This document shows positions 2,512 through 40,072 of a stretch of DNA of 42,936 bases, piece after piece. A program made the translations under genes and the position numbers. This DNA is from Pseudomonadota bacterium (GTDB lineage Bacteria > Pseudomonadota > Gammaproteobacteria > Pseudomonadales > Azotimanducaceae), in contig JACZXA010000010.1 in assembly GCA_022571865.1 (NCBI GenBank), positions 1-42,936 of the forward strand. The letters are read 5' to 3'. Each line of letters opens with the position of its first letter. The stretch's first letter is position 1. The notes beneath the pieces are model-generated. The model worked only from the letters and a program-made list of their open reading frames with translations. It had not been told where the DNA came from and did not search any database.

Positions 2512-3348
2512 CTAGCTGGGTTTGCCGCCTTTCACCACAAAACGATGCATGATGCGCGTCTCATCGTAATCGCCAATGGCGTAGTGCATCACCGAGCGGT
2601 TGTCCCACATCACGAGATCGTCCAGATCCCATTGGTGGCGGTAGGTAAATTCCGGGCGGGTGGCGTGGGCAAACAGCCGATACAGGAGTCGCTCGCTCTC
2701 GTCGTTGGTGAGACCGACGATGTGCTTGGTGAAGTTACCGTTCACGTACAACGCCTTGCGAGCGCTCTCATCGTGGGTTCGCACCACCGGGTGCACCGAA
2801 TCTTCGACATCCGGTCCGAATACTTTTCCGGTGTGGAAAGCCTCGAGGTCGGCGATTTGCTCCTTAGTCTCGTCGTCGAGGGTTTCGTAGGCGATGTGTT
2901 GGTTGGAGAAAGCGGTGTCTCCACCGGTCGAGGGCAACCGCCGGGCGTGTAACCCGGTGATACGAGGCGGTGTGGAGTGCCATGTCATATCGGAATGCCA
3001 GCCACCGCCAAAAGGGTGAACGCCCGGGAGCAACTTGAACTTTCGATTCTTGCCACCGATGAATTGCACGTAGTCGGTGTCCCGGTGTTTTGTGGCCGGG
3101 TGGGTCAGAAGCTCGCCCCACATCCGTCCGAAAGCTTCCAGTTCGATTGCGGAAAGCTTCTGGCCTGGAAACACCAGTAAGTGGTGTTCGAGCAGGAGGG
3201 AGCGAAGATGGTCGATCACCTCAATGCCGTGGTCGCGGGCAAGGTCGATTCCTTCGATGCGTGCACCCATCGCAACGCTTGCGGGACTCACGTTGAGGTT
3301 CTTAAACGAGACAATATCTGTGACGCTGGTTGCTTCGGCCATGGTCAT
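2512..3348 (-). CDS. TauD/TfdA family Fe(II)/2-oxoglutarate dioxygenase
   Basis: A 278-residue protein of the size normal for TauD. The iron triad is visible as H118-x-D120 in GGGWHSDMTWH and H255 in NRSVMHYAIGDY, and the 2-oxoglutarate-binding arginine lies in RIMHR (R265/R269). The family hydroxylates sulfonates, phenoxyacetates, alkyl sulfates or similar compounds with 2-oxoglutarate as cosubstrate and releases CO2 and succinate. The substrate is not evident, and no sulfonate transporter is adjacent. Two in-frame ATGs (3348 and 3342) are possible starts. It is a single gene on the minus strand between the crotonase and the TlpA operon, 88 bp downstream of the latter. Confidence 0.9.
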   Translation of the reverse strand: MTMAEATSVTDIVSFKNLNVSPASVAMGARIEGIDLARDHGIEVIDHLRSLLLEHHLLVFPGQKLSAIELEAFGRMWGELLTHPATKHRDTDYVQFIGGKNRKFKLLPGVHPFGGGWHSDMTWHSTPPRITGLHARRLPSTGGDTAFSNQHIAYETLDDETKEQIADLEAFHTGKVFGPDVEDSVHPVVRTHDESARKALYVNGNFTKHIVGLTNDESERLLYRLFAHATRPEFTYRHQWDLDDLVMWDNRSVMHYAIGDYDETRIMHRFVVKGGKPS

Positions 3349-3436: not shown

Positions 3437-3949
3437 TTACAACAGAGCGCGTATCTCAGCCTCGAATACCGGCGCCGGGGTAAACCCGGTGTGATGGTGG
3501 CAGATCATGCCGTCCCGCGTGATGATCACGGTTGTTGGAAACCCGACCATCGGCCCAAAGGCCGCTTTGACATCATCCCTGCCGTCACCGATGAGTACCG
3601 GGTAGTCCATTTGAAACTCATTCGCAAACCGTCTGATCGCGTCGGGACTGTCATTCACCGAAATTCCGACGACGGACAACCCCTCGGACTCGAGCGCGTC
3701 GAAGAGTTTGATGAAGCCGGGTATTTCTATTCGACACGGAGCGCACCAGGTCGCCCAGAAGTCGAGCAGAATCACCTTACCGGCATGTTGGCGAAGATCG
3801 TGATCGACGCCATTCATGTCGACGAGGGTGAAATCGAGGTTGGCGGGCTTCCCGGTAACCGAGCAGGTGGTTTTTGTTTCCTCAGAAGCCTCCGTGACAC
3901 TTCCCAAGAGCAGCACAACGCCAAGCGAGACGAGCGTAGCGATGCGCAC
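3437..3949 (-). CDS. exported TlpA-like thioredoxin-family protein
   Basis: A 170-residue protein with an N-terminal signal peptide (residues 1-21, ending near TEAS) and a TlpA/ResA-type thioredoxin fold. The redox motif is W-C69-A-P-C72 in DFWATWCAPC, and the cis-proline is in VGFPTTVII (P138). Such proteins act in the periplasm, usually as reductants of disulfides or in cytochrome c maturation. The start is a GTG at 3949, only 2 nt after the stop codon of the DUF3179 gene and without a clear ribosome binding site, so translational coupling is likely. Its position directly behind a protein with a putative U-x-x-C motif suggests it could be that protein's reductant; this is inference. Confidence 0.9.
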   Translation of the reverse strand: MRIATLVSLGVVLLLGSVTEASEETKTTCSVTGKPANLDFTLVDMNGVDHDLRQHAGKVILLDFWATWCAPCRIEIPGFIKLFDALESEGLSVVGISVNDSPDAIRRFANEFQMDYPVLIGDGRDDVKAAFGPMVGFPTTVIITRDGMICHHHTGFTPAPVFEAEIRALL

Positions 3950-3951
3950 AA

Positions 3952-4965
3952 TTATTCGAAGATGTCCGGGTGGGTAAACGTCAACGAAAACCCGTACCAG
4001 CGGGTGAACATCTGTTGTGGTCGGGTTAGGGGTGCCGATTCTCCATCGGCGCCATACAGTTGGCCCGCGATGATCTTCCTGCCGCCATCGAGCACGATGG
4101 CGTTGTCCTGAAAGCTCACGTCCGTCGCTTCGACAAATACCGCTCGAGGGGTCGAGGTAACCGGATCGAGGTAAATCAGCGTTTTCTGTCCGTCGAATTC
4201 ATCGAGAACATAGTTGCCGCGCTCGCGCAACGTTTCGAGTGGATAGTATCGCTGTGCACCTTCAGACCACACGCCCAGGCCCATATCCATGCGAGCACGG
4301 CGCTCATCGTCCTCGCCGAGCGTCTCTATGAACATGGGCCTCAGTTTCGCCTCGGAGCCCGAATATCGGGATTTGCGGCCGTCCAGGGAGAAGGGGCGCT
4401 CGGAAATGGCAATGCGCGTATTCGCGTCCATCTTCACCGCTTGCTCTGCGTTCATCTGGAGTAGGTTGCTCAACGGTAGCTGGATACCCGCCTGCTCACC
4501 GTAAATGCCTTGACCGGTAACGTGATGCCACAGGGTGGCCGTCTGGTCGTCCTTCATGACGAACATCCCGTCGTAAAGACCGGAGACCACGAAGCGATAG
4601 GTTTTGCCGTCGAGCGTGGGGATCAAACTGACCCCGCTGTTGCAAACGACTCAGAAGGTGGCCATCCAGTTTTTGCCGTTGTCCGTCCCTTGAGCGATGT
4701 GGTGGAACGACATTTGATCCTTGAGGAGTGCGAGCTTGCCTGCCGCGGTTTCCGTCACCAGGACTTCCATCGTCCCGTTCACCAGCCCTGAGTCGAGTGC
4801 GGACTGCAACAACTGGGTTTGCTCGACGTGAAACGTCTTGAACCAGCCTTCCCCGGCCGTACTGTAACGATTGATGTCGAACGACTCGGGTGTTGTTGCG
4901 TAAGTGCCCGGAACCCCGCCAGTAACTAGCAGAACAATCAGGAAACTCAGGAGCTTTACGATCAT
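3952..4965 (-). CDS. DUF3179 family exported protein with in-frame TGA: candidate selenoprotein (or pseudogene)
   Basis: A single frame from the ATG at 4965 (strong AGGAGGA site upstream) to TAA at 3952 reads through one TGA at 4653-4651, giving 337 residues. The half before the TGA has a signal peptide (cleavage after about T-Y-A23) and the half after it shows DUF3179 hallmarks: C-N-S-G, a V-x-G-L-Y-D-G block, T-A-T-L-W-H-H-V-T-G, and a Y-P-L-E-T-L segment near the middle. The TGA falls at residue 105 in N-W-M-A-T-F-[TGA]-V-V-C-N-S-G. From memory of the family, this position is the first Cys of a conserved C-x-x-C, so decoding as selenocysteine would give U105-x-x-C108. The frame is intact on both sides, no other lesion is seen, and a SECIS-like hairpin follows. 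The alternative is a TGC-to-TGA nonsense change or a sequencing error. Biochemical function of DUF3179 is unknown; a periplasmic thiol-redox role is inferred. Confidence 0.75.
4613..4638 (-). promoter_or_regulatory. SECIS-like hairpin downstream of in-frame TGA
   Basis: Counting from the base after the TGA (TGA at 4653-4651), nucleotides 16-19 GGGG pair with 30-33 CCCC, 20-21 UC pair with 27-28 GA, and U29 is bulged. The apical loop 22-26 is AGUUU. A lower helix AGC (13-15) can pair with GCU (36-38) across a 2-nt bulge. Bacterial SECIS elements sit just 3' of the UGA, have a bulged U, and have a G in the first two loop positions with the loop about 16-37 nt from the UGA; this element meets the loop and spacing criteria. 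The bulged U lies on the 3' side, unlike the 5' side in E. coli fdhF, which is a caution. Confidence 0.5.
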
Positions 4966-4989: not shown

Positions 4990-5898
4990 CTACAGGTACG
5001 GTAACAGCGGAACGGTTGGTGACGCCAGGGTATCACCGAGCTGCTTGCCGCCGACGATGCCTGTGAAGAACTCGCTTTGGACCAAGTCTGCGAAATACTC
5101 GACACCCGGGTAATAAACGATGACAACCTGGTCGAAGTCGGCATCCCCTTCGAGCGTAACGGCACGGCCGATGTGGGTCGGACCGTTGCCCATCTCGGCC
5201 ATCAACCCCAGCATTTCACTTCCGTAGCCCGAGTTGGCCTCGCGTTGCTCAGTACTTCCACTCTTGATGAAGTTCAACACGACGCAAGCGTCTTTTCCGT
5301 ACTCGCGGTTGGCGAGCAATCCTTCGACCAATCGCGAGCGTGGATCTGGCGTTTCGAGTTCAGCCTGTCCAGCGGCTTCGGCTTTTCTAAACGGATACCG
5401 GGCAGGGGTCAGTGTGACGATATCCATTATCCGTCTGCCTAACAAAACGATGGGTAGGGTGAGATTGAGCATTGCGGAGCGTTGCATGCCGAGCGCGTAA
5501 GTGTTTGCGAAGCTTGCACGGATTTCGGTGTAGCCGGGAGTTGCTGCGGCCGCATCATAAGCGTCTCGCGACGGGTACTGCGCGAGGACAAACGCGCTCC
5601 AGTTTTCCTGTGGGAGCTGTTTCGATTGCAGTGCAATGACCGCGATCTTGCCAGCGTAAACTACTGTCGCGCCATCGCGTTCGACGGCATCGACAAACGC
5701 TTTCACACCCGTGAGCAATGGTTGGTCGGGAGAAAGTGCAAGTAGCGTTGCCACGTGAAATACCGATGAAGAGTGAAATACGTCCTGTCGATCCATGACG
5801 ATATCCCGGCGTGTGCTCAAGTAGCGGAAGTGCTGCGCGGCGACTGCAAGTAACGCAACAATCAACAGGATCGATACCGTCCAGAAAAGCCACTTCAT
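4990..5898 (-). CDS. membrane-anchored tandem DUF1330-like protein
   Basis: A 302-residue protein with one N-terminal membrane segment (residues about 3-22) and the remainder outside. Two copies of a dimeric alpha/beta-barrel-like pattern are visible: FVLAQYPSRDAYDAAAATPGY in the first half and VVIVYYPGVEYFADLVQSEFF near the end. Both resemble the DUF1330 core, in which a beta strand is followed by P-S-R-x-A/Y and a helix ending in P-x-Y. DUF1330 proteins have no established general activity. The ATG at 5898 has a GGGGGAA site. It is the first gene of the operon with the DUF3179 and TlpA genes (24-nt gap to the next start), and is divergent from the beta-lactamase-fold gene. Family assignment is by motif similarity and moderate. 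Confidence 0.75.
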   Translation of the reverse strand: MKWLFWTVSILLIVALLAVAAQHFRYLSTRRDIVMDRQDVFHSSSVFHVATLLALSPDQPLLTGVKAFVDAVERDGATVVYAGKIAVIALQSKQLPQENWSAFVLAQYPSRDAYDAAAATPGYTEIRASFANTYALGMQRSAMLNLTLPIVLLGRRIMDIVTLTPARYPFRKAEAAGQAELETPDPRSRLVEGLLANREYGKDACVVLNFIKSGSTEQREANSGYGSEMLGLMAEMGNGPTHIGRAVTLEGDADFDQVVIVYYPGVEYFADLVQSEFFTGIVGGKQLGDTLASPTVPLLPYL

Positions 5899-35364: not shown

Positions 35365-35752
35365 CAGCCATTCACGAACAACCCTCGTTTTTCTCGCCCG
35401 GACATTGCGCGAAGACGCAGAGTTTCGGGTGCGGATCGTGGTCGTCATGACGGCTCGTGACCGAAAGCGTAACCGTATACGGCATTGAGGCTTCGCATAG
35501 CGAACGCGCTGAATATCTGGCGGTCTTGGCGACCGCAGTAGCTTGATCATGAATAATCCAGGCTAGGTTACCCGCGCAGGCGATTGTCGGAGTGAGGGGT
35601 GTTGCTGCCTGAACTGAAGTTTTTGGGCCGTAAAGGCCCAAATGTGGCGCCAGGACGTGAAGAAGCCCAAATTTCGCAAGATTTTTTGCGTTAAGATTCG
35701 TAGACTGGAGCGTTACCTTTCGTATCACTCCGAATTCGAGCGATTTTCGACC
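35365..35752. other. 388-bp intergenic region with repeat core and hairpin
   Basis: CATGAATAATCC at 35548-35559 is identical to the 12 bases at 22031-22042 in the terminator between the ATPase and MFS genes. TTTGGGCC (35622-35629) and GGCCCAAA (35635-35642) form a perfect 8-bp stem with a GTAAA loop but no T-run. The remainder, up to the adaptor gene, probably carries the efflux operon promoter. No gene is supported here. Confidence 0.45.
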
Positions 35753-36910
35753 ATGACACGAATGTTGAAGGTAGTTCTGCCGATCGTATTTATCGTCCTG
35801 GCGATCGGTGCATCTTTCGTGATGGTCCAGTCGCGTCCCGCGGCTATGCAGAAGCCCGTGTCACTTCCCGCGTTACGCGTTTCGGTCAACACCGCCGTTC
35901 GAACACCGGTTACCTTCGTGGTGCGCTCGCAAGGTTCGGTTTCACCTCGCACCGAGACGATTCTGATGTCCGAAGTTTCAGGACAGATCATCGATGTTTC
36001 GCCCGCTTTCGTCAGCGGCGGTTTTTTCAAACGCGGCGACATTCTCGTTCGTATCGACCCGCGCAACTATCGCTCCGCGGTCAAGCGGGCGAAGGCCGGC
36101 GTCGCCAAAGCGCAAACGCAGGTTGCGACGGAAAGTGCACTCGCCGGTTACGCATATGAAGATTGGCAGCGATTGCGGGAGTTCGACCGAGCCTCACGAG
36201 AGGCTTCGTCGCTGGTGCTCAGAAAGCCGCAGTTGCAGGCGGCGATTGCCGAACTCGAGTCGAAGGAAGCCGATCTCGAAATGGCTCAGGAAGACCTGAA
36301 CCGCACAATCATTCGCGCCCCTTACAATGGCATGGTGCGAGAAAAAATCGCCGATATTGGCCAGTTTGTGGGCGTCAGTGGGCAGCTCGCACGAACGTTC
36401 GCCGTAGACCGCGCTGAGGTTCGCCTCCCACTGACACAAAACGATCTGCGATTCCTGGATTTGCAGAGTCTGAGCGCCGGCGTAAGGCTACCAGTGACGT
36501 TGTCAGCCGATATTGGCGATCAAACCTTCACCTGGAACGCCCAGATCGTGCGTTCGGAAGGTGTATTCGACGCGACCAGCCGGGTGTTGTATGTAGTCGC
36601 ACAGATTGAGGACCCCTACGGTCTCGAATCTGAAGGTCGCGAACCGCTTCGTATTGGCACCTTTGTTACCGCGGAAATTACCGGTAACTCTGGCGGTGAA
36701 TTATTTGCTGTTCCTCGGTATGCTCTGTCACGCGGCAAGACCTTGTGGCTCGTCGACGACGAGTTTCGTATTCACCCGAGCGACGTGCACATCGTTCGAA
36801 TGGATGAAAACTTTGCTTATATCGACGAAGGTCTCGAGGAAGGCGACCGCTATACGATCACGCCCATCGATCAGCCGCTGCCGGGTATGAAGGTCCGCTT
36901 TGATGGTTAA
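35753..36910 (+). CDS. RND efflux periplasmic adaptor (membrane fusion protein)
   Basis: A 385-residue protein starting at ATG 35753, with one N-terminal membrane anchor (about 7-25). The architecture is that of RND adaptors: a lipoyl-like half motif SEVSGQIIDVSPAFVSGGFF, an alpha-helical hairpin (about 105-175, rich in Ala, Glu and Lys), the returning half DLNRTIIRAPYNGMVREKIA, and then beta-barrel and membrane-proximal domains. It links the inner-membrane pump encoded next to an outer-membrane channel, which is not in the window. The pump gene begins 40 nt downstream. Confidence 0.92.
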   Translation: MTRMLKVVLPIVFIVLAIGASFVMVQSRPAAMQKPVSLPALRVSVNTAVRTPVTFVVRSQGSVSPRTETILMSEVSGQIIDVSPAFVSGGFFKRGDILVRIDPRNYRSAVKRAKAGVAKAQTQVATESALAGYAYEDWQRLREFDRASREASSLVLRKPQLQAAIAELESKEADLEMAQEDLNRTIIRAPYNGMVREKIADIGQFVGVSGQLARTFAVDRAEVRLPLTQNDLRFLDLQSLSAGVRLPVTLSADIGDQTFTWNAQIVRSEGVFDATSRVLYVVAQIEDPYGLESEGREPLRIGTFVTAEITGNSGGELFAVPRYALSRGKTLWLVDDEFRIHPSDVHIVRMDENFAYIDEGLEEGDRYTITPIDQPLPGMKVRFDG

Positions 36911-36949
36911 TCCTGATCTTTTGTGCTCACAATAAATCCGGTGGGATAA

Positions 36950-39900
36950 GTGCCTGATCAAAAAGTTCGTGGGCTGATCGGTTGGTTTGCGACTAACCAC
37001 GTTGCCGCCAACCTGCTGATGTTCTTCATACTCGGTATGGGCATCTACTCTCTCGTGGTCATGAAAAAGGAGATGATGCCGGAGTTTCGGTTCGACATCA
37101 TCACCGTCCAGATGTCCTACCTCGGCGCCGCACCCCAGGAAGTGGAAGAGGGTGTGATCATCAAGATCGAGGAAGCCATCAAGTCCATCCAGGGTATTCG
37201 CAAGATCAATTCGATTGCGGCCGAAGGTTTCGGGCGAGTCATGATCGAGGTAGAGGATGGTTACGAACTGGGGGAAATTACCGACGAGTTGAAGCTTGCG
37301 ATAGACGGGATCTCAACCTTCCCGGCTGAGACGGAACGGCCAACGTACTCGAAACAACTCTTCCGACGCGGCGTGATCAACGTTCAGGTGCACGGCAACC
37401 TCGACGAACGCACCATGAAGGAGCTTGCGGATCAGATTCGTGAGGAGATTGTTGCTCTGCCTGATGTGACTTACGCCGAGGTTATGGGGTCACGGCCTTT
37501 CGAAATTTCGATCGAGATTTCCGAAAATACATTGCGCCAGTACGGAATGACGTTAAACAGAGTCGCGCAAACGATCAGGCTCTGGTCGATTGACCTGCCG
37601 GGCGGATCGATTCGCTCCGAGTCGGGCAACATTCGTTTACGAACGAAGGGCCAGGCGTACACGGGCGAGGATTTCGCCAAGATAGTTCTTTTGACACGGC
37701 CCGACGGCACCCGGGTCACCCTCGGCGACATCGCATTGATCCGCGACGAGTTCGCGGAGGTCGAGAGTTATTCGTTCTTCGATGGTGAACGAAGTTTCGG
37801 CATCACCGTGATGTCGAACAGAGAAGAGAGCGAACTGGACATCGCCGTGGCCGTCAACGAATACGTTGATCAACGTCAAGCGACGCTACCCGATGGGGTA
37901 AAGCTCACCGCCTGGATGGACGGGACCTATTACCTTAGGGGTCACCTGAACATGATGCTGGGAAACATGGCGATGGGCGCCATCCTCGTGTTCGTCATTC
38001 TCGGGGTTTTTCTGCACGTGAAGATCGCGGCGTGGGTAATAATTGGTCTGCCCGTCGCGTTTCTTGGCGCCTTCATGATGTTACCGCTGCCTTTTGTCGG
38101 CGTAACGATCAACATGATGAGTCTGTTTGCGTTCATCCTGGTGCTTGGCATCGTCGTTGACGATGCAATCATCATTGCCGAGAGCGCGTACACCTATACC
38201 GAAAAGCACGGTTACAACCTGCCGAACATCGTCGCGGGCGCGCAACGGGTTGCAGTGCCGGCAACGTTTGGCGTCCTCACGACCATGATGGCATTCTTCC
38301 CGATGCTGTTCGTGGACGGACCGACGTCTGAATTTACTGCGGCTATCGCGTTTGTGGTGATTTTCTGTCTGTTCTTTTCGCTCATCGAATCGAAGCTCAT
38401 CCTGCCTTCCCACCTTGCAATCATGAAATCTTCCCATGGAGACAAATCGGGAATTGCGGATTGGGTGGATCGTAGGCTCAAACACTTCATCAATAACGTC
38501 TATGCACCGTTTCTCGCAAAGGCGATCGAGTTTCGATATGCAACGCTCGCATTCTTTTTCAGCCTGCTTATATTGACGGTGGGTCTGGTTGGAAGCGGAC
38601 TGGTACGTTTCGTTTATTTTCCGGAAATGGACCAGCCTTATGTGATGGCCACCATCGAACTGCAGGAAGGTGCGCCAGAGTCTCTGATCAGGGAAATCGT
38701 TGAGCAGATGGACGCGAAGTTGGCTGAAATCAACGAGGAGATCAAAGCGGAGACGGGAACCGATCTCAACGCCGCCGAGCATCTGTTTGCGTATATCCAG
38801 GACGGCACGAAGGGTCAGTTGCAGGTCGAACTCAACCAGAGTGGCGAGCGGATCGTGTCACCGAAGGAGATTGAGCGACGCTGGCGCGAGAAAGTCGGCA
38901 CGATCCCCGGCACCAAGGCATTGCGGTTCTCATCGGGCATGCACATGGGTGGAGGTCCACCGGTGGCGTTCGCCTTGAAAGGAAACAACTACCAGCGTTT
39001 GGAAGCGGCTGCAATCGAACTCGTCGAGCACCTTAAAACCTTCGAAGGGCTCTACGAAGTGGAAAGCTCGGCAAACGCGGGCCCCGAGGAGATTGAACTC
39101 AAGATCAAACCCGAAGCCGAGGCGCTGGGTGTTACGCTTTCCGATCTAGCCCGACAGGTTCGCCAGGCGTTCTACGGTGCCGAGGCGCAGCGAATCCAGC
39201 GTGGCGATCAGGAAGTGAAGGTGATGGTGCGTTACCCGCGCTCGGAGCGTTCATCCATCGGCAATCTGGAAAAGATGTGGATACGCCTGCCCGATGGACG
39301 TGAGCTACCTTTTTCCGTCGTTGCCAGCTACGAAATGACCCGGGGCTACGACACCATCGAACGCCTCGATGGACAGCGTACGGTTTCTGTGACATCGAAC
39401 GTCAACCTGTCTGTTGCAGAACCCATGCAGATCGTTCGCCAGATTGGTCGCGATTTCATGCCCGAACTGCTGAGTCGTTATCCCGGTATCAAATACGAAC
39501 TCACGGGCAGTTCCCATGAGGAAGAGATGGGGCTGATGCAAACGGGTTATGCGTTCGTCGCAGCACTTTTTGGCATCTATGCGTTGATGGCAATCCCGCT
39601 GAAGTCCTATGTGCAGCCGCTTATCGTCATGAGCGTGATTCCGTTCGGCATCATTGGTGCGGTTGTCGGGCACATGTTTCTCGGTATCGCTATCAGCTCT
39701 CTCTCACTCATCGGCATCATTGCCTTGTCAGGCGTGGTGGTTAACGATAGCTTGATCATGGTGCATTTTGTCAACCGCGCCGTTGCCGAGGGCGCAACAG
39801 CCTCTGAAGCAGCGATTGAGTCCGGTATCGTCCGTTTCCGGGCCATTCTGTTGACCTCGCTAACCACGTTTTTCGGCCTGTTGCCAATCGTTCTGGAAAC

Positions 39901-40072
39901 CTCCCTGGAAGCACAGATGATAATTCCAATGGCGGTGTCGTTGTCGTTCGGTATCGTGTTCTCGACCGTCATCACGCTGATTCTCGTGCCTTGCCTGTAC
40001 AACATTGTTGGGGATTTCCGAAAAACGCCGAAGCCCGTAGTAACTTACCCAGAGCAACAACAAGCTTCGTAA
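36950..40072 (+). CDS. RND efflux transporter permease
   Basis: A 1040-residue inner-membrane pump of normal length for the HAE/HME-like RND family, starting with GTG at 36950. The N-terminal helix NHVAANLLMFFILGMG is followed by the large periplasmic loop, then helices with the proton-relay pair in LGIVVDDAIIIAES, where AcrB has D407-D408. A second loop and helix set include SSLSLIGIIALSGVVVNDSL. It exports drugs, lipids or other amphiphiles using the proton gradient. The adaptor gene is directly upstream; no TolC-type gene is seen. Confidence 0.93.
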   Translation: MPDQKVRGLIGWFATNHVAANLLMFFILGMGIYSLVVMKKEMMPEFRFDIITVQMSYLGAAPQEVEEGVIIKIEEAIKSIQGIRKINSIAAEGFGRVMIEVEDGYELGEITDELKLAIDGISTFPAETERPTYSKQLFRRGVINVQVHGNLDERTMKELADQIREEIVALPDVTYAEVMGSRPFEISIEISENTLRQYGMTLNRVAQTIRLWSIDLPGGSIRSESGNIRLRTKGQAYTGEDFAKIVLLTRPDGTRVTLGDIALIRDEFAEVESYSFFDGERSFGITVMSNREESELDIAVAVNEYVDQRQATLPDGVKLTAWMDGTYYLRGHLNMMLGNMAMGAILVFVILGVFLHVKIAAWVIIGLPVAFLGAFMMLPLPFVGVTINMMSLFAFILVLGIVVDDAIIIAESAYTYTEKHGYNLPNIVAGAQRVAVPATFGVLTTMMAFFPMLFVDGPTSEFTAAIAFVVIFCLFFSLIESKLILPSHLAIMKSSHGDKSGIADWVDRRLKHFINNVYAPFLAKAIEFRYATLAFFFSLLILTVGLVGSGLVRFVYFPEMDQPYVMATIELQEGAPESLIREIVEQMDAKLAEINEEIKAETGTDLNAAEHLFAYIQDGTKGQLQVELNQSGERIVSPKEIERRWREKVGTIPGTKALRFSSGMHMGGGPPVAFALKGNNYQRLEAAAIELVEHLKTFEGLYEVESSANAGPEEIELKIKPEAEALGVTLSDLARQVRQAFYGAEAQRIQRGDQEVKVMVRYPRSERSSIGNLEKMWIRLPDGRELPFSVVASYEMTRGYDTIERLDGQRTVSVTSNVNLSVAEPMQIVRQIGRDFMPELLSRYPGIKYELTGSSHEEEMGLMQTGYAFVAALFGIYALMAIPLKSYVQPLIVMSVIPFGIIGAVVGHMFLGIAISSLSLIGIIALSGVVVNDSLIMVHFVNRAVAEGATASEAAIESGIVRFRAILLTSLTTFFGLLPIVLETSLEAQMIIPMAVSLSFGIVFSTVITLILVPCLYNIVGDFRKTPKPVVTYPEQQQAS

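Follow-up and report, generated by a model that had tools for sequence, protein, structure and literature searches.

A probable selenocysteine-containing DUF3179 protein with a SECIS-like hairpin and a TlpA/ResA-like neighbor

The locus and its genes

The window (the whole 42,936-nucleotide stretch of DNA that we analyzed) contains a gene of the DUF3179 family, interrupted by one in-frame TGA codon and adjoined by a gene for a thioredoxin-fold protein. The features of this locus are the following:

3437..3949, minus strand: TlpA/ResA-like thioredoxin-fold gene with a WCAPC motif and a signal-like N terminus (Pfam, NCBIfam)
3952..4965, minus strand: DUF3179 gene, probably encoding a selenoprotein; 337 codons from ATG to TAA, with predicted selenocysteine (Sec) at codon 105
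4619..4635, minus strand: SECIS-like hairpin with a 7-bp stem and a 3-nt GUU loop (folds and conservation)
4642..4644, minus strand: codon of Cys108, the second residue of the UxxC motif (translation and alignment)
4651..4653, minus strand: TGA codon, probably read as selenocysteine, U105 of U-V-V-C (TGA in relatives, Cys codons in homologs)
4894..4965, minus strand: N-terminal hydrophobic segment, signal-peptide-like (translation, judged by eye)
4990..5898, minus strand: upstream gene with a weak DUF1330 match (Pfam)

The initial annotation had proposed a minus-strand frame broken only by the TGA at 4653-4651, and our analysis confirmed it: the 337 codons run from 4965 to 3952, and the single in-frame TGA falls at residue 105. 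By eye, an AGGAGG motif lies 7 nt upstream of the ATG at 4965; the gene ends with TAA at 3954-3952. The read-through protein of 337 residues matches PF11376 (DUF3179) over residues 63-291 (Pfam; E 8.9e-20), scoring 71.7 bits against a gathering cut-off of 27. Searched against NCBIfam, this protein matched zero models at E 0.01, and ORF calling under table 11 divides the frame into two ORFs of 104 and 224 residues. Because of these two properties, annotation can easily mistake such genes for truncated ones. Rfam, applied at gathering scores, returned nothing in the window.

The downstream gene starts 2 nt past the TAA of the DUF3179 gene. Its product shares with TlpA/ResA/DsbE-like thioredoxins the WCAPC motif and redoxin-family Pfam matches, those to AhpC-TSA and Redoxin being above the cut-off. 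It matched 17 NCBIfam models, each with a score under the curated cut-off, the best being for the ResA subfamily (91.2 bits against 170 for ResA, and 65.2 against 230 for TlpA); we therefore describe it as TlpA/ResA-like only. The upstream gene lies on the same strand and shows no sign of belonging to the unit, and at the locus of the nearest relative (L053) the upstream ORF begins with a sequence that, judged by eye, is unlike it. Ordinary neighbors elsewhere in the window include a beta-lactamase-family gene (PF00144, 5811-7340) and an efflux pair of HlyD and AcrB type (35642-40072).

Probable selenocysteine at the first motif position

The TGA was said in the initial annotation to occupy the place of the first Cys of the family CxxC motif, and comparison with ordinary, Cys-type DUF3179 proteins bears this out. 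These proteins have the same domain as the window protein, and their first motif Cys aligns with the window Sec. We aligned 56 of them, drawn from retrieved loci only and leaving out repeats of the window gene or of another locus. All 56 have Cys where the window has TGA; at the second position of the motif, 52 have Cys, two Thr, one Ala and one Ser. With 23 further loci (20 of the long type and three classic), the residue is Cys in all 79 homologs, encoded by TGC in 49 and TGT in 30. Two of the Cys-type genes belong to the window's own genome (contigs C228 and C231). In the alignment, the U-x-x-C of Sec105 and Cys108 replaces the C-P-L-C typical of most ordinary DUF3179 proteins. The window protein differs from these in its branch as well, falling in a divergent branch of long proteins (support 100/100) with the motif U-x-x-C-N-S-G-V-S; this branch has Cys members too, of which we examined 20.

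A scan of genome contigs gave 12 stretches with a pattern match, of which seven were confirmed as relatives (38-74% identity over the best segment). All seven carry TGA at the same codon, making eight of eight with the window gene, so the homologs with TGA at this codon for which the initial annotation had proposed a search do exist among close relatives. Six of these loci come from metagenome-assembled genomes (MAGs) whose titles read Proteobacteria or Gammaproteobacteria, and the seventh, L058, comes from an Anaerolineales MAG. The seven lie on separate contigs in six genomes, L054 and L059 sharing one (G658). In the order to which the Anaerolineales genome belongs, a search of 154 genomes gave matches in 91, and four of the matches listed have one in-frame TGA: L058 itself, its paralog L117 in the same genome, L113 in another genome and L118, a gene of the classic branch. 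Corresponding searches of the window's order (25 of 293 genomes matched) and class (64 of 369 matched) found an in-frame TGA, among the matches listed, only in the window. None of 51 pattern matches on viral contigs was confirmed, and three plasmid records gave weak matches (25-40% identity). Two MAGs hold more than one gene of interest. The proteobacterial G658 carries a pair of Sec-type DUF3179 genes, only one of which has a TlpA-like neighbor. In the Anaerolineales genome G662 (L117, L119, L124/L097), two long DUF3179 genes are of the Sec type and at least one is of the Cys type.

Substitution patterns were compared on the two sides of the TGA. Between the window gene and L053, Ka is 0.18 and Ks 0.76 before the TGA (103 codons), and Ka is 0.142 and Ks 0.94 after it (232 codons). 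In the pairs L054/L055 and L056/L059, too, Ka is far smaller than Ks both before and after the TGA, and Ks is saturated or nearly so in the three pairs that are more divergent. These comparisons of sequence indicate that both halves are coding and that purifying selection continues beyond the TGA. The assembly is fragmented (315 contigs), and from one gene alone a TGA introduced by faulty sequencing or assembly, or by a nonsense mutation of recent date, would look the same. Both possibilities are contradicted by a same-codon TGA in seven of seven relatives, whose contigs are distinct and distributed over six genomes, and by the selection that persists past it, and we regard them as vanishingly unlikely.

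The window genome encodes the machinery for selenocysteine insertion. Its tRNA-Sec scores 70.9 bits and is called by ARAGORN as tRNA-SeC with anticodon TCA; selB (381 bits), selA (540.5 bits) and selD (268.4 bits) each exceed their curated cut-offs. All four of the genes for which the initial annotation had suggested looking in the source genome (selA, selB, selC and selD) are thus present. Three of them, selC, selB and selA, stand side by side on contig C185 (6318-9657). The selD match (C233, 3388-4290) lies within an open frame of 766 codons and the selD model has 311 positions, which suggests a fusion.

Among the six genomes holding the seven relatives, ARAGORN identified tRNA-Sec in five. 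All six have an RF01852 match over the cut-off, the match in G657, the genome of L053, being called tRNA-Ser by ARAGORN. We found selA above the cut-off in six of eight genomes searched (G659-G662, G762 and G694), with none in G657 and no match in G658, and selB above the cut-off in three of four (G658, G694 and G762). G657 also has neither selB above the cut-off nor tRNA-Sec by ARAGORN. One missing contig could remove its sel genes, because three of them share one small cluster in the window genome; the result remains contrary evidence. In G694, the genome of L118, selA and selB are side by side, and tRNA-Sec was not found above the cut-off. Across a set of 16 genomes, matches barely above the RF01852 cut-off of 47 bits were not counted as tRNA-Sec; among the 14 of these chosen for a Cys-type long gene (G762 and G694 excluded), nine have a match of more than 60 bits, so Sec machinery alone does not predict the Sec form.

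Translation might instead end at the TGA, the locus being either a two-part gene, perhaps with a restart at the downstream TTG (224-residue ORF, 3952-4626), or an old pseudogene. The 104- and 224-residue pieces given by ORF calling suit this reading, as does the MAG of the nearest relative with its lack of detected Sec machinery. However, the stop would fall on an invariant Cys within a conserved motif, purifying selection acts on both halves, ARAGORN finds tRNA-Sec in five of the six relative genomes, and the conservation of the hairpin described below is left unexplained; we consider termination very improbable. We give similarly little credence to a reassigned TGA or one read as another amino acid (Trp, Gly or Cys) without Sec. 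The frame would be open under any code in which TGA specifies an amino acid, but of 28 long window ORFs that we selected from the ORF list, 10 terminate at TGA, which is therefore not reassigned; moreover, the position is never Trp or Gly, being Cys in 79 of 79 homologs, and the complete Sec machinery argues against readthrough without Sec.

In our assessment, the window gene very probably encodes a selenoprotein in which the TGA specifies selenocysteine; UGA codon 105 would be read with the residue supplied by SelB and tRNA-Sec. The protein joins a family already on record. A table in PMC9312934 carries the entry 'DUF3179 domain-containing protein, pfam11376, UxxC/T', with its reference 63 as the source, and a table in PMC13188914 gives DUF3179 (PF11376) the same UxxC/T entry as a prokaryotic selenoprotein family, crediting it to its reference 60, the study by Zhang and Gladyshev 2007 of the Olavius algarvensis symbiont. 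Example sequences given for the listing are MBW1804167.1 and MDJ0986319.1. PMC9230427 names DUF3179 only in a gene table. The window's U105-V-V-C108 has the UxxC form that the reviews give for DUF3179 selenoproteins, and the listed proteins share with it the Pfam family and a UxxC Sec, a comparison that extends to family and motif only, not to branch. The initial annotation had called the gene a candidate new selenoprotein, naming among the findings that would refute it a genome lacking Sec machinery and a lack of TGA at this codon in related genomes; neither was what we found. The selenoprotein part of this claim is strongly supported by the machinery, the TGA in relatives, the hairpin and selection past the TGA; the idea of a new selenoprotein family was rejected because these two reviews already list DUF3179 as UxxC/T. 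The window gene adds a well-supported new member to a selenoprotein family that was already known, and it reveals no new family or mechanism.

Our sequence comparisons add three things: one well-defined clade of Sec genes, proteobacterial and Anaerolineales, within a divergent branch of DUF3179; a recurring TlpA-like neighbor; and a possible second Sec case in the classic branch. Our search, which covered open-licence literature, turned up no publication addressing either this clade or the TlpA-like neighbor. A little-studied family thereby gains Sec members in Proteobacteria and Anaerolineales, together with a hairpin that is strongly conserved and Cys genes for comparison, and this Sec/Cys dataset makes both SECIS function and the redox role testable.

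A conserved hairpin downstream of the TGA

The loop of the hairpin, GUU or GUC across the genes, begins 22 nt after the TGA; bacterial SECIS (bSECIS) loops are reported at 16-37 nt from the UGA (PMC13188914). The hairpin shares this spacing, and a G in the first two loop positions, with bSECIS elements. A scan with a generic SECIS rule based on loop, spacing and energy assigns the window hairpin -10.5 kcal/mol. The z-score of its fold is a modest -1.69, with 13 of 200 shuffles as good.

Codons 111-113 (GGG GTC AGT) make up the 5' arm of the stem plus the two leading loop bases and do not vary among the eight genes, although only 44% of synonymous codon comparisons among the eight are identical over the whole gene. 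Among 65 invariant degenerate residues, five use one codon in all eight genes, and codons 111-113 are the only run of three. All seven stem pairs can form in nine of 11 TGA genes (nine of ten in the window's branch) versus one of 79 Cys genes, counts that are not independent, the genes being related. The sole Cys gene with seven pairs, L099, belongs to the same long branch. Within the first eight genes, stem substitutions fall on a single side. In L113, both sides of one stem pair have changed, from C-G to T-A. L117 shows A-T at a pair that is G-C or G-T in the rest of its branch. L117 retains five of seven pairs in the common register, and a bulged stem appears possible by eye. The classic-branch L118 has one of seven pairs in this register and a different hairpin of five pairs with its loop at 20 nt.

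We rejected the generic SECIS rule as evidence, since across the 11 TGA and 79 Cys genes it is non-specific: at -7.5 kcal/mol it passes 46 of the 79 Cys genes and fails two of the 11 TGA genes (L057 and L118), and in L054 the best hairpin by the rule differs from the conserved one. The rule alone not being specific, the case for a SECIS element is made because the hairpin is conserved across TGA genes. With this strong comparative support, the hairpin at 4635-4619 would act as the SECIS element of the gene.

History and possible function

Our tree of 41 proteins separates 11 classic rows (ten of Cys type plus L118, for which just 25% of the row is filled) from 30 long-type rows (100/100). The ten long-type Sec rows form one group (99/99), inside which the seven proteobacterial Sec rows form a group of their own (100/100), with the three Sec genes of the Anaerolineales order outside them. 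L113 forms a long branch in this tree and the sampling is limited. An earlier tree without the long Cys rows also placed all eight Sec rows on one side. This topology fits a single Sec origin in the long branch and transfer between phyla, with the root and direction as we infer them. L118 (G694, contig C558) has a classic-branch U-P-L-C with TGA at the first Cys, and its frame is open for 105 codons before the TGA and 234 after. If real, it would represent either a separate Sec gain, possibly a second origin in the family, or a very old gain. As a tentative scenario, Sec may have arisen once in the divergent branch, which in Anaerolineales (Chloroflexota) includes genes of both the Cys and the Sec type; the gene, accompanied by its SECIS hairpin, may then have moved into Proteobacteria and there joined its TlpA-like partner, and a second, independent gain may have occurred in the classic branch with L118.

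The TlpA/ResA-like gene recurs beside the DUF3179 gene. A protein 56-81% identical to the window's is encoded directly downstream at L053, L056, L057 and L059, giving five of eight loci including the window. It was not found at L054 and L058, two of the six relatives with enough downstream sequence, and the contig of L055 ends 135 bases after the DUF3179 gene.

We lean slightly toward a redox model, in which Sec105 and Cys108 would cycle between the selenol/thiol and selenenylsulfide states in an oxidoreductase, as the motif suggests. The protein is probably exported, judging from the signal-like N termini, and the recurring neighbor suggests that the TlpA/ResA-like protein from the adjoining gene may re-reduce the Sec protein. 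If the tentative evolutionary scenario above is also true, the DUF3179 and TlpA-like pair would be an exported selenoenzyme system that brings along a dedicated reductant. A function based on structure was dropped from consideration: a PDB sequence search gave no relative at E <= 1, the structure model built from eight sequences was poor (mean pLDDT 59), and a Foldseek search of the PDB with it gave no match at E <= 0.001.

The selenoprotein could also use its Sec in a non-dithiol role (for example, metal or substrate binding), with the TlpA-like neighbor incidental. The UxxC motif and the thioredoxin-like neighbor in the window and four relatives argue against this, but several observations favor it: the literature searched gave no stated function for DUF3179, and there is neither a solved relative nor a usable fold match; the second motif Cys is Thr, Ala or Ser in four of 56 homologs; and L054 and L058 lack the neighbor. 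On this evidence, we view a non-dithiol role as possible, if somewhat improbable.

A tblastn search with the TlpA-like protein across 91 loci, many with about 1.5 kb of flanking sequence, gave one further match, at L023 (36% identity). There, a thioredoxin-like stretch (about 2671-3021) lies approximately 1 kb from a Cys-type DUF3179 gene in the window's own genome, hinting that the pairing of DUF3179 with thioredoxin-like proteins may be wider.
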